This document shows positions 26,637 through 31,109 of a DNA stretch of 64,000 nucleotides, piece after piece; position 1 is the first letter of the stretch, and each line of letters begins with the position of its first letter. A model generated the notes under the pieces. It worked only from the letters and a program-made list of their open reading frames with translations. It was not told the origin of the DNA and did not search any database. Both the position numbers and the translations under genes were made by a program. This DNA comes from Verrucomicrobiota bacterium (GTDB lineage: Bacteria; Verrucomicrobiota; Verrucomicrobiia; Limisphaerales; UBA9464), in the NCBI GenBank assembly GCA_947471985.1, contig CANIZL010000016.1:1-64000 (forward strand), written 5' to 3'.

Positions 26637-27101
26637 TTAGCGGGCTTCGCGGATCCGGATCGTGTAGCCCTTAGCCCGGTCGTTCATCGAGGTGAATCGC
26701 AGGGTTTCCTGGGCGTTCTCGGTGAGAATGACGTTCTGCCACGGCGTTTCCTCCACGGCGAAACCGCTGACGTCCTTGAACACGCACTGCGACTGGACCT
26801 GAATCCGGCGGGAAAGTCGATTACGCACGTTGATGCCGACCTCCAGCCGTCCGTCTTCCAACGGGTGTTCAAGCAGGCTGTTATAGGTGACGCTGCGTTG
26901 AGCCCGATAATCCATCAACGCGACCTTGGAGGTCTGTTCCACATTATAGCGGTCGGTGTTGCGGGCGGTATAGGCCCCACCCTCGTGACCGGTCACCACC
27001 GCGTGGGTGGTGCTGCCGACGGCCTCGCCGACCGGGCGGCACGCAGCCAGGGTGGTCACCAGGGCGAGAGTGCAGGTATGGAGCGCAAGTTTGGAATTCA
27101 T
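26637..27101 (-). CDS. YcfL-like (DUF1425) lipoprotein
   Basis: 154 residues from the ATG at 27101. MNSKLALHTCTLALVTTLAAC is a lipoprotein signal (lipobox LAAC). The mature part has one beta-rich domain (RLEVGINVRNRLSRRIQVQ, then WQNVILTENAQETLRF) resembling the YcfL family. In Escherichia coli ycfL lies beside lpoB; the same neighbourhood is kept here with an LpoB-like gene two genes upstream, which strengthens the call. Likely periplasmic face of the outer membrane, linked to peptidoglycan synthesis control. Confidence 0.8.
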   Translation of the reverse strand: MNSKLALHTCTLALVTTLAACRPVGEAVGSTTHAVVTGHEGGAYTARNTDRYNVEQTSKVALMDYRAQRSVTYNSLLEHPLEDGRLEVGINVRNRLSRRIQVQSQCVFKDVSGFAVEETPWQNVILTENAQETLRFTSMNDRAKGYTIRIREAR

Positions 27102-27130
27102 ACGATTAAAAGCAGTTAACGGACACACGA

Positions 27131-28258
27131 TCACGGATGGTCACTGAAGAAGACGACGGTATCCGCACCCCCGGGCACGATGGTGAACGTGGCGTCGCGG
27201 GTCAGCGTGACGCGGCCGGCCGGGTCGAGGAACTCGACGGTCAATTGGTGCTGGCCGGGCGCGGCGCGGAGTCCGGCAAAACCCAGTAGATTGGGCAGGT
27301 TATCCCATTGTCGGGTGTCGGCTTGCGGGGTGACGGCGGCGCTGATCAATTTGCTCAGCACGCCGGCAGCCAAAAGGCCCACGCCGATTTCATCGGCGGG
27401 ACCGTGACGTCCCGAGCCCACGATGGCGAGGGCTCCCCCACTGATCAGGGCCGCATTACCAAAGGTATCGGTGGCGTCCTTGAACACCGCCTTGTTCTTC
27501 AAGATGTGATCCATGACCCGACCGCCCCGCGTGGTGGCCTGCCAGCTCAGATCATCCCACGCCCGAACCTCCGCGCTCTGCCCCCCGAGTTTGAGGCGGA
27601 CCCGGTCGGCCCGGCTGGCGCCGGGCGAGAAGCGCAATTGCTCCCCGTGTTCGCCACCGGCGTACTTGCGCGGTCCGGTGCCCATTTCGAAAAACACCAG
27701 CACATTGGCCTGACTGTCAATTTCGGCGGGCACGCCCATGCGCGCATGGGTTCGGGCCCGTTTTAAAGCGTCCTGCCCGTCGCCGCCGAGCTTGGCGGCC
27801 GCCAGACCCTCCAGGAAGTCGAGGGTCACATAATCCGACTGATACTGATGGTTTTCTGCGTCCGCGTCCTGCAGTTGCGCGTTTTTGAAGCAGGCCCGGG
27901 CGTTGTCCGGCTGTCCGTCCAGCCAGTAGAGGATGCCCCGGTAGTAGTACGCCATCACGCGTTCATACGGTTCTCCGCGGAAATTCTTGGAGCTTTCCTC
28001 ATGAAAAGTCCCCCGCGCCTTGCGGGCTGAGCGATCCCCCGCCGTCAGCCCATCGAGGGTCATCAACACATCGTCCAGAAGCGGTTTCGCCTGATCGAAG
28101 TGCGCACTGTGCATTGCGGCGGCCGCGGCCCGGTACTTCTGCAGCACTGCATCCCGCGCCGCAGCGTTGCCGCTCCCAGTGGCGCAACCGGCCATTGACA
28201 GCGCCAAGGCCAAACCCATCACCGCGGGTCCCAACCGGCTCAACAACAGTGAGATCAC
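27131..28258 (-). CDS. COG3014-like lipoprotein with TPR-like N-terminal part
   Basis: 375 residues. The start is a GTG at 28258 (or TTG at 28264); an ATG at 28219 would cut the signal too short. Lipobox SMAGC near residue 25. Residues 40-190 are helical and TPR-like (YYYRGILYWLDGQPDNARACF). The C-terminal half has a long glycine-rich membrane-like helix (NAALISGGALAIVGSG) and a beta domain ending VVFFSDHP. This fits the COG3014 family that accompanies LpoB and YcfL in several phyla. It is 30 bases before the YcfL gene and 65 after LpoB. Function is unknown beyond the association with the peptidoglycan synthase activator. Confidence 0.75.
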   Translation of the reverse strand: MISLLLSRLGPAVMGLALALSMAGCATGSGNAAARDAVLQKYRAAAAAMHSAHFDQAKPLLDDVLMTLDGLTAGDRSARKARGTFHEESSKNFRGEPYERVMAYYYRGILYWLDGQPDNARACFKNAQLQDADAENHQYQSDYVTLDFLEGLAAAKLGGDGQDALKRARTHARMGVPAEIDSQANVLVFFEMGTGPRKYAGGEHGEQLRFSPGASRADRVRLKLGGQSAEVRAWDDLSWQATTRGGRVMDHILKNKAVFKDATDTFGNAALISGGALAIVGSGRHGPADEIGVGLLAAGVLSKLISAAVTPQADTRQWDNLPNLLGFAGLRAAPGQHQLTVEFLDPAGRVTLTRDATFTIVPGGADTVVFFSDHP

Positions 28259-28323
28259 ACTCAAAATAGCAGAAGTACGAAATCGGAAAATACGGCGTCA
28301 GATGGGTTGCTGGCCTTCAACGT

Positions 28324-28956
28324 TCAACGGTACGCGGCGTCGTCCTGCCCTTGCTTCTTGATCTCAGCAAAGTCCTCCCAGAGGATCGAGCTGGATTGAA
28401 CATCGATCAGTTGGAAGGTATAGAGTACATAATCACTGACGCCCTTGGAGGACTTGGTGGTCAGGCTGGAAAGTTTACCGGTGAGCATATAATCCGCCCC
28501 GGCAAAACCGGCATTGCCCGGCACGGTGCCGCCGGTAAGCGCTCCCTGCTGCTTGAGTTCGCGTTCCTTTTGCAGAGCTTGCAGGCGTTCACGGGCCAGA
28601 AAATTGACCTTGCCGGCGGCCTTCTGGTTCAGTTGAGCCCGGATCCGGGTATTGAAGAGATCCTTGTTGATGGCAAAACGGGTTTCGTTTTCCACCGGCA
28701 GCAGCACCACGTTGGGCGGGGTGCCCGCTGATTTGATACGATCCAAGCCCACGATTCCCCGGGCCATCTTGTCGGAGACAGCGACCAGATCCTGCGACTC
28801 AATCCCGGTGCCCGCCACGGTGCCGGCCTCTTCCGGTTGCAGCACCTTGACCCCGGAGCCGCTGGGATTGCGGACGCCGTAGGTGGAACAGCCACTGACC
28901 AGCGACACCGCCGCCACGACGGCCGGCAACAACAAGCGAACAGAAACAGAATTCAT
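28324..28956 (-). CDS. lpoB: LpoB-like penicillin-binding protein activator, lipoprotein
   Basis: 210 residues from the ATG at 28956. Lipoprotein signal MNSVSVRLLLPAVVAAVSLVSGC. The globular domain has the LpoB order: DLVAVSDKMARGIVG, a beta strand VVLLPVENETRF, INKDLFNTRIRAQL, LARERLQALQKER, ADYMLTGKLSSL and YTFQLIDVQSSSILWED. In gammaproteobacteria LpoB reaches from the outer membrane through the wall to activate PBP1b; verrucomicrobial LpoB-like proteins may work differently. It is the first gene of the operon lpoB, COG3014-like, ycfL, bioD. Confidence 0.85.
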   Translation of the reverse strand: MNSVSVRLLLPAVVAAVSLVSGCSTYGVRNPSGSGVKVLQPEEAGTVAGTGIESQDLVAVSDKMARGIVGLDRIKSAGTPPNVVLLPVENETRFAINKDLFNTRIRAQLNQKAAGKVNFLARERLQALQKERELKQQGALTGGTVPGNAGFAGADYMLTGKLSSLTTKSSKGVSDYVLYTFQLIDVQSSSILWEDFAEIKKQGQDDAAYR

Positions 28957-29777: not shown

Positions 29778-30263
29778 ATGAAGGATACATTGAAGCAGTA
29801 CGTTGCGCTCCGTTCCGGTCTCGTGGCCGAGAAGTCGGCCCTGGAAGCGCGTCTCCGTGAGATCAACAAGGCGCTCGGTGAGAGCTCCCCGGCCGCGGTC
29901 GTTGCGGTTGCTGCCAGCAGTGCCGCCGTCGCTCCTGCGAAGCGCCGTGGTCGTCCTCCCGGTGCCGCGAAATCGGCTGGTGCCGCCGCCGCTAAGCCGG
30001 CTGCTGCCGCTGCCGCCCCCAAGGCCGCCGGCGCTGGCCGTGGTCGTGGTCGTGGCCGTTCCGGCAATGGTTCGTCCCTGAAGGAAGCCGCGGTCAAGGC
30101 GCTCGAAGGCGGCAAGAGCCTCAGCCGTCAGGAACTGCTCAAGGCGGTTGTCGACAGTGGCTATAAGTTCACCGCGAAGGATCCGCTGAACTCCCTCAGC
30201 ACCCTGGTGTACTCCTCCAAGAAGGTGTTCAAGGCCAAGGGCGGTATGATCTCGCTCATCTGA
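29778..30263 (+). CDS. AT-hook and HARE-HTH-like nucleoid protein
   Basis: 161 residues. Residues 1-34 form a coiled coil (QYVALRSGLVAEKSALEARL). Residues 35-98 are an Ala/Lys/Arg-rich tail like histone H1, with an AT-hook KRRGRPPG (55-62) and GRGRGRGR (88-95). Residues 99-161 make a small winged-helix-like domain: SLKEAAVKALEGGKSLSRQELLK is cut here by length, but the key marks are SLKEAAVKAL, LSRQELL, FTAKDPLNSLSTLVY and KGGMISL. This pattern matches the HARE-HTH (HB1/ASXL) fold, also found in the RNA polymerase delta subunit. It probably binds AT-rich DNA in the nucleoid and may influence transcription. The long upstream gap and the terminator downstream suggest a single-gene unit with strong expression. 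Confidence 0.8.
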   Translation: MKDTLKQYVALRSGLVAEKSALEARLREINKALGESSPAAVVAVAASSAAVAPAKRRGRPPGAAKSAGAAAAKPAAAAAAPKAAGAGRGRGRGRSGNGSSLKEAAVKALEGGKSLSRQELLKAVVDSGYKFTAKDPLNSLSTLVYSSKKVFKAKGGMISLI

Positions 30264-30290: not shown

Positions 30291-30315
30291 GGCCCGCCGC
30301 CCTGGCGGGCCTTTT
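30291..30315 (+). terminator. Intrinsic terminator after the AT-hook gene
   Basis: Stem GGCCCGCC / GGCGGGCC with a 5-base loop, then TTTTG. It lies 27 bases after the stop codon and just before hisF. Confidence 0.85.
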
Positions 30316-30329
30316 GTTTGCCCCTGCAC

Positions 30330-31109
30330 ATGCTTGCGCGCCGCGTTATTCCCTGTCTCGATGTCCACGATGGTCAAGTCACCCGGGGCATCCAGTTTGG
30401 CCGAGCCGAGGCCGGCGAATTGCGCAACGTGGGTGACCCCGTCGCGCTGGCCGTCCGTTACAACGAGCAGGGCGCCGATGAAATGGTGTTCTTCGATATC
30501 ACGGCGAGCGCACATGGGCGGCATTCGATGATCGAAGTGATCGAGCGCACCGCGGATTGCTGTTTCATGCCGTTGACCGTCGGTGGAGGTATTCGCACCG
30601 TGGAGGACATGGGCCAGATGCTCCGGGCCGGTGCGGACAAAGTGAGCATCAATTCCAGCGCGGTATCGGATCCGGGTCTCATCCAGGCCGGGGCGGCGAA
30701 GTATGGAAGCCAGTGTATTGTCGTTTCGATCGATGCCAAACGTACCGCGCCGGACACCTGGGAGGTGTTTGTTGCCGGTGGGCGCAAATCCACCGGTCTT
30801 CGCGCCGAAGTCTGGGCGCAGCGCGCGGTGGCTTTGGGGGCCGGGGAAATTGTCCTGAATTCCATCAATGCCGACGGCACCAAGCAGGGGTTTGATCTGG
30901 AGATCACGCGGCGGGTGAGTGAATCTGTCGGTGTGCCGGTCGTGGCCAGCGGTGGCGCCGGCTCTTTGGAACATATGGCGGAGGTTTTGCTGGCGGGCCG
31001 GGCCGATGCGGTCCTGGCCGCGAGCATCTTTCATTTTGGCACTTATACGGTCCGGCAGGTGAAGGAGCATCTCCGGCAGCAGGGGATCCCGGTCCGACTC
31101 GACGTCTGA
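30330..31109 (+). CDS. hisF: Imidazole glycerol phosphate synthase cyclase subunit
   Basis: 259 residues from the ATG at 30330, giving [20 protein letters not shown] with the catalytic Asp11. The second catalytic Asp is in VSIDAKR. Phosphate-binding loops GGGIRT and [11 protein letters not shown], and [10 protein letters not shown], complete the HisF (beta/alpha)8 barrel. It joins with HisH to convert PRFAR into imidazole glycerol phosphate and AICAR. No other his gene is in the window; scattered his genes are common in this phylum. Confidence 0.96.

Follow-up and report, generated by a model that had tools for sequence, protein, structure and literature searches.

The window analysed here, a stretch of 64,000 nucleotides from a Verrucomicrobiota bacterium, carries an open reading frame (29778..30263, + strand) that runs from an ATG at 29778 to a TGA at 30261–30263 and encodes a 161-amino-acid protein made up of a coiled coil, a basic AT-hook/Ala-Lys linker and a HARE-type winged helix. 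Homologues (E <= 1e-3) were found in 20 of 38 related genomes, and in 16 of 23 from the same family, so the frame is a true gene rather than a chance one, and it is conserved. Immediately downstream lies hisF (30330..31109, + strand; PF00977, 3.9e-77), which adjoins the best-match locus in all 20 cases and falls outside the function proposed below; the named relatives (17 loci) are Verrucomicrobia metagenome-assembled genomes. The remaining neighbours are a phosphate acetyltransferase gene and an LpoB operon. As had been noted from the sequence alone, the gene has a large upstream region: about 800 bp separate its ATG from the divergent LpoB-like gene, and the 200 bp directly upstream are 45% G+C, compared with 62.6% in the window. 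The divergent LpoB-like, TPR and DUF1425 genes beyond it (26637–28956) are kept beside the gene in many relatives.

Seven of the 23 genomes of the same family gave no homologue match. Upstream of hisF, six of these seven have no recognisable copy and one (L163) has an N-terminal remnant; the gene is thus dispensable. The L163 remnant, an open frame at L163:1181-1414, matches the N-terminal module only and appears to be a decaying copy. A paralogue (L021/L156) occurs in the same genome as the window, with no hisF adjoining it in the 10 kb examined around it. A mobile origin of the gene was also considered and was dropped, as no relative was found in viral contigs, phages or plasmids.

An alignment of 19 family members shows that both ends of the protein are conserved and the middle is variable. 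At the N-terminus, AlphaFold predicts a single helix over residues 2–32 (29781..29873, + strand), in which hydrophobic residues are spaced every 3.5 positions and the heptad power exceeds that of 985 of 1000 column shuffles, bearing out the coiled coil proposed in the sequence-only reading. The N-terminal part has a mean net charge of +1.5 (this and the other charge and AT-hook counts refer to 27 sequences), and we presume it to be an oligomerisation module, not least from its fusions to other C-terminal domains (see below).

The middle is a disordered linker, with pLDDT below 50 at residues 37–60 and 62–91, that ranges from 24 to 88 residues across the family and carries a mean net charge of +9.7 (+11 in the window protein); Ala, Pro, Gly, Ser, Thr, Lys and Arg account for 92% of it. 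It is, in other words, an unstructured basic linker of the H-NS-like kind. It contains the AT-hook KRRGRPPG at residues 55–62 (29940..29963, + strand) and, directly before the winged helix, an RGRGRGR arm at residues 88–94 (30039..30059, + strand), the position at which 16 of the 27 members have an R-A-x-N arm. Our first AT-hook pattern, which matched 16 of 27 linkers, had been written after the sequences were seen, and stricter patterns were therefore counted as well: an RGRP core occurs in five of 27 linkers (shuffle mean 0.2), GRP in nine (1.6 when shuffled), and either RGR or GRP in 15 (shuffle mean 2.9), a number reached in none of 1000 shuffles, while 12 members have neither core. The H1-like Ala/Lys tail with an AT-hook that had been read from the sequence is thus present, and its cores are over-represented across the family.

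The C-terminal winged helix (residues 100–161; 30075..30260, + strand) is predicted with high confidence over residues 100–160, in the order alpha-(beta)-alpha-alpha-beta-beta, with helices at 101–109, 117–126 and 136–146 and strands at 151–154 and 157–160; pLDDT exceeds 90 in the full-length model and averages 84 when the domain is modelled alone. The domain is basic (family mean +5.4; +6 in the window protein), and basic residues are conserved at position 102 in all 19 members, at 117 and at 148 in 18, and at 152 in 17.

Whether this winged helix is HARE-HTH-like, as the sequence-only reading held, depends on the level at which the question is put. Scored against PF05066, the full-length window protein has 14.6 bits and the isolated domain 17.6, both below the curated cut-off of 25.9, while 14 of 19 family members match the model at E <= 1 (best 8.7e-5; the next families reach at most two of 19) and the orthologues in G011 and G018 pass the cut-off with 26.5 bits. 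With the family profile, 26 more places were located in other Verrucomicrobiota (17 of 288 genomes, that of the window included), and ten of these 26 distant homologues pass the PF05066 cut-off. An hhalign comparison of the family with 26 classical HARE sequences from the phylum gives a probability of 96.4% over 50 columns; against PDB sequences the top match of the domain profile is the human ASXL1 HARE domain, at an E of 0.12 that is insignificant by itself. By these profile comparisons the relationship holds for the family and not for the window sequence alone; at the family level the profile match and the expected fold were both found, and the earlier assignment survives there. The aligned core P-x-x-(S/T)-L-x-x-x-(L/I)-Y is shared with the HARE-HTH proteins (ASXL, RNA polymerase delta, HARE restriction enzymes), from which this protein differs in that a basic linker leads into a C-terminal HARE-type domain and no enzyme partner is attached. 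An extra helix inserted in the helix-turn-helix is described as a HARE-HTH trait (PMC11037411); our model shows no helix of four or more residues between 117–126 and 136–146.

Structure searches place the domain among DNA-binding-type winged helices and do not point to a specific function. Foldseek against the PDB returned first the DNA-binding domain of Rok (5zuz; probability 0.99, E 0.031, TM 0.63 by query), followed by another Rok entry and then by chromatosomes with linker histone and the winged helix of KAT6A. As a caution, winged helices resemble one another, and no Foldseek match reached E <= 0.001. VIA-align ranked the globular domain of yeast H1 (1ust) first in both lists, at Z 8.5 (rmsd 2.6) and Z 8.8 (rmsd 2.5). 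Forkhead domains and other winged helices tied with it, at differences of less than 1 Z, and chromatosome entries of H5 and H1 reached Z 7.3–8.0; RNA polymerase delta (9a6y), ranked 30 by Foldseek, scored Z 7.2 (rmsd 3.6, 67 aligned), and Rok was not among the best 50 rows of either list.

From its architecture, fold and charge we propose that the 161-residue protein is probably a nucleoid-associated protein that works in the manner of H-NS or Rok. Its N-terminal helices would pair with one another to form an oligomer, its AT-hook linker and winged helix would bind DNA, preferably AT-rich, and the oligomer could then bridge and pack DNA and silence genes, filling the role of H-NS or Rok in the Verrucomicrobia phylum. 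Rok, the xenogeneic silencer of Bacillus, oligomerises through its N-terminal region and binds DNA through a C-terminal winged helix, with a linker between the two; a basic arm before helix 1 sits in the minor groove (PMC6212790, PMC6936261). Rok/sRok and the present protein share the order of oligomerisation region (presumed in our protein), flexible linker and C-terminal winged helix, the alpha1-beta1-alpha2-alpha3-beta2-beta3 order and the basic arm before helix 1; they differ in that Rok has a neutral Q-linker and a WH_Rok domain where our protein has a basic AT-hook linker and a HARE-type one. By secondary-structure position, rather than by residue alignment, K102 would correspond to Rok K116, whereas the base-reading N-T-R residues of Rok, judged from the helix starts, do not appear to be conserved by position. 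Membership in the Rok family was dropped, as PF23159 (WH_Rok) has no match in the genome, although the model matches in Bacillus subtilis and finds sRok at 4e-22, and hhalign against plasmid-borne sRok gave 0.1–4%. Since these sequence tests fail, the protein can be Rok- or H-NS-like in its working at most. With H-NS, MvaT and Lsr2 it shares a modular plan with a basic linker and AT-hook-like cores, such as have been described for H-NS and Lsr2 (PMC6936261, PMC6212790); here the DNA-binding domain is, by contrast, a winged helix.

The genome, which is 96% complete, encodes HU twice and contains nothing that matches the models of H-NS, Lsr2 or WH_Rok. Given that completeness these proteins are likely, though not certainly, absent, and the niche of a bridging protein therefore looks open. 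Some features weigh against assigning a nucleoid role: the linker varies widely in length (24–88 residues), neither RGR nor GRP is present in 12 of the 27 members, and the gene is dispensable.

The same winged helix and tail could instead make the protein a bacterial equivalent of the linker histone H1, binding DNA crossings or HU-bound DNA and packing it without real oligomerisation. The position of 1ust at the head of both VIA-align lists and the composition of the linker favour this, but forkhead and other winged helices tie with 1ust, no Pfam linker-histone family is matched by any of the 19 members (E <= 1), and the order is reversed, the tail preceding the domain. H1 is also not known to have a heptad-periodic N-terminal helix, whereas here such a helix is conserved, and we regard an H1 counterpart as unlikely. 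A related comparison is with the bacterial H1-like proteins AlgP and PhaF, which likewise have a disordered stretch rich in Ala, Lys and Pro; the N-terminal domain of AlgP is helical (PMC9239181) and the protein ends in a KPAA tail, while in our protein the linker precedes a folded winged helix.

The HARE domain could also dock on RNA polymerase, as in a delta-like regulator, which would supply the link to transcription suggested in the sequence-only reading. RNA polymerase delta does bear a HARE domain and is among the structural matches, but it has an acidic disordered tail, and the linker here is strongly basic, as is the domain. The over-represented AT-hook cores and the conserved basic arm before the domain speak against this role too, and the HARE proteins of the phylum that do have acidic linkers (L104, L109, L111) are built differently. 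Because of its architecture and basic charge a DNA-bridging nucleoid protein fits better, and we consider a delta-like regulator very improbable; by analogy, the nearer functional comparison is DNA bridging of the Rok/H-NS type. The earlier interpretation is supported in part. We give similarly little credence to a sensor or regulator that reads modified DNA bases, since, although recognition of such bases has been proposed for HARE-HTH domains (cited in PMC11037411 and PMC10853773) and HARE proteins with Mrr-like nucleases (named by eye) occur in the phylum, no nuclease, methylase or defence gene adjoins the gene, its hisF neighbourhood is fixed, and phages, plasmids and viral contigs yielded no match.

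Returning to the nucleoid-associated reading, the gene offers two indications of separate, high expression. An intrinsic terminator, GGCCCGCC-GCCCT-GGCGGGCC followed by a T run, lies at 30291..30311 (+ strand), in agreement with the earlier claim that the gene has its own. A scan found this one terminator, where shuffles of the whole region lead one to expect 2.3; a similar hairpin and T run precede hisF in 15 of 15 loci tested, compared with 28 of 300 shuffles; the test covered 15 of the 17 named loci, with L048 and L059 omitted. The second indication is codon usage: CGT makes up 0.91 of the gene's 11 Arg codons, compared with 0.11 over 37 open reading frames of the window, none of which reaches 0.91, with 0.17–0.50 in ribosomal-protein frames of the same genome (identified by eye) and with 0.17 in the paralogue. 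The RG repeat itself accounts for part of this bias, and one HU frame, with CGT in none of its four Arg codons, misfits a simple codon-bias rule. The high expression anticipated from the sequence thus gains indirect backing, tempered by the contribution of the repeat; codon bias and the conserved terminator together suggest that the gene is expressed strongly and separately, and the protein is probably abundant.

The N-terminal helix occurs well beyond the HARE form. The family profile matches 69 of 195 genomes of the order, and because some of these matches cover the N-terminal part only, the HARE form is present in fewer than 69. We read 20 places with N-terminal matches: 16, judged by eye, combine the same helix with FSAATKAKMAAAQKARWAK-type basic repeats, three (L150, L152, L154) have a similar helix with a different winged helix, and one (L155) has a similar helix with a HARE-like domain (16.8 bits). 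A profile of the N-terminal part alone confirmed the sharing, matching for example L150 (3.3e-14), L151 (3.1e-12) and L140 (1.5e-11) well, and L152 (2e-4) and L154 (0.0028) weakly; L155 was not among the matches listed. One N-terminal module with different DNA-binding ends is how an oligomerisation module would be expected to look. Among the repeat proteins, L137–L149, L151 and L153 share the helix and bear basic repeats of the type (F/M)SAATKAKMAAAQKARWAK. We had suspected these KARWAK repeats to be NUMOD3, which went unsupported, as two such proteins showed neither that match nor any other Pfam domain (E <= 1); the idea that KARWAK-type proteins substitute for the HARE protein at the hisF locus was rejected, as no hisF was found beside them in the stretches examined.

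More tentatively, these fusions could belong to a Verrucomicrobiota chromatin toolkit, in which a shared oligomerisation module carries swappable ends (KARWAK repeats, or a winged helix of the HARE or another type), with the HARE member possibly a phylum-specific functional replacement for H-NS/Rok that bridges DNA through a folded domain like that of linker histones and ASXL. To our knowledge, little is known of the chromosome organisers of Verrucomicrobiota, and a conserved, probably abundant protein of bridging-type build is a concrete candidate for one; a HARE domain in such a protein would also illustrate one way in which a domain known from eukaryotic chromatin can serve to pack bacterial DNA. 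Among the papers listed by our literature searches none dealt with a HARE protein of Verrucomicrobia, with an earlier mention possible in the definition of HARE-HTH (Aravind and Iyer, 2012).

HARE domains appear in other settings within our searches. G120:C1 has, dispersed along one chromosome, fourteen 130-residue open frames with a HARE-HTH match of 26.2 bits, which probably represent a mobile element. A different build is found in L104–L107, L109–L111 and L113–L115, where an N-terminal stretch resembling IxVGSxVxVKVGRNxIxVxV, SH3/KOW-like by eye, is followed by a linker (acidic in L104, L109 and L111) and then by HARE-HTH. Finally, a 258-residue open frame at L060:1432-2205 combines a coiled coil with two tandem HARE-like domains; the genome that holds it, G202, has eight matches to the family.
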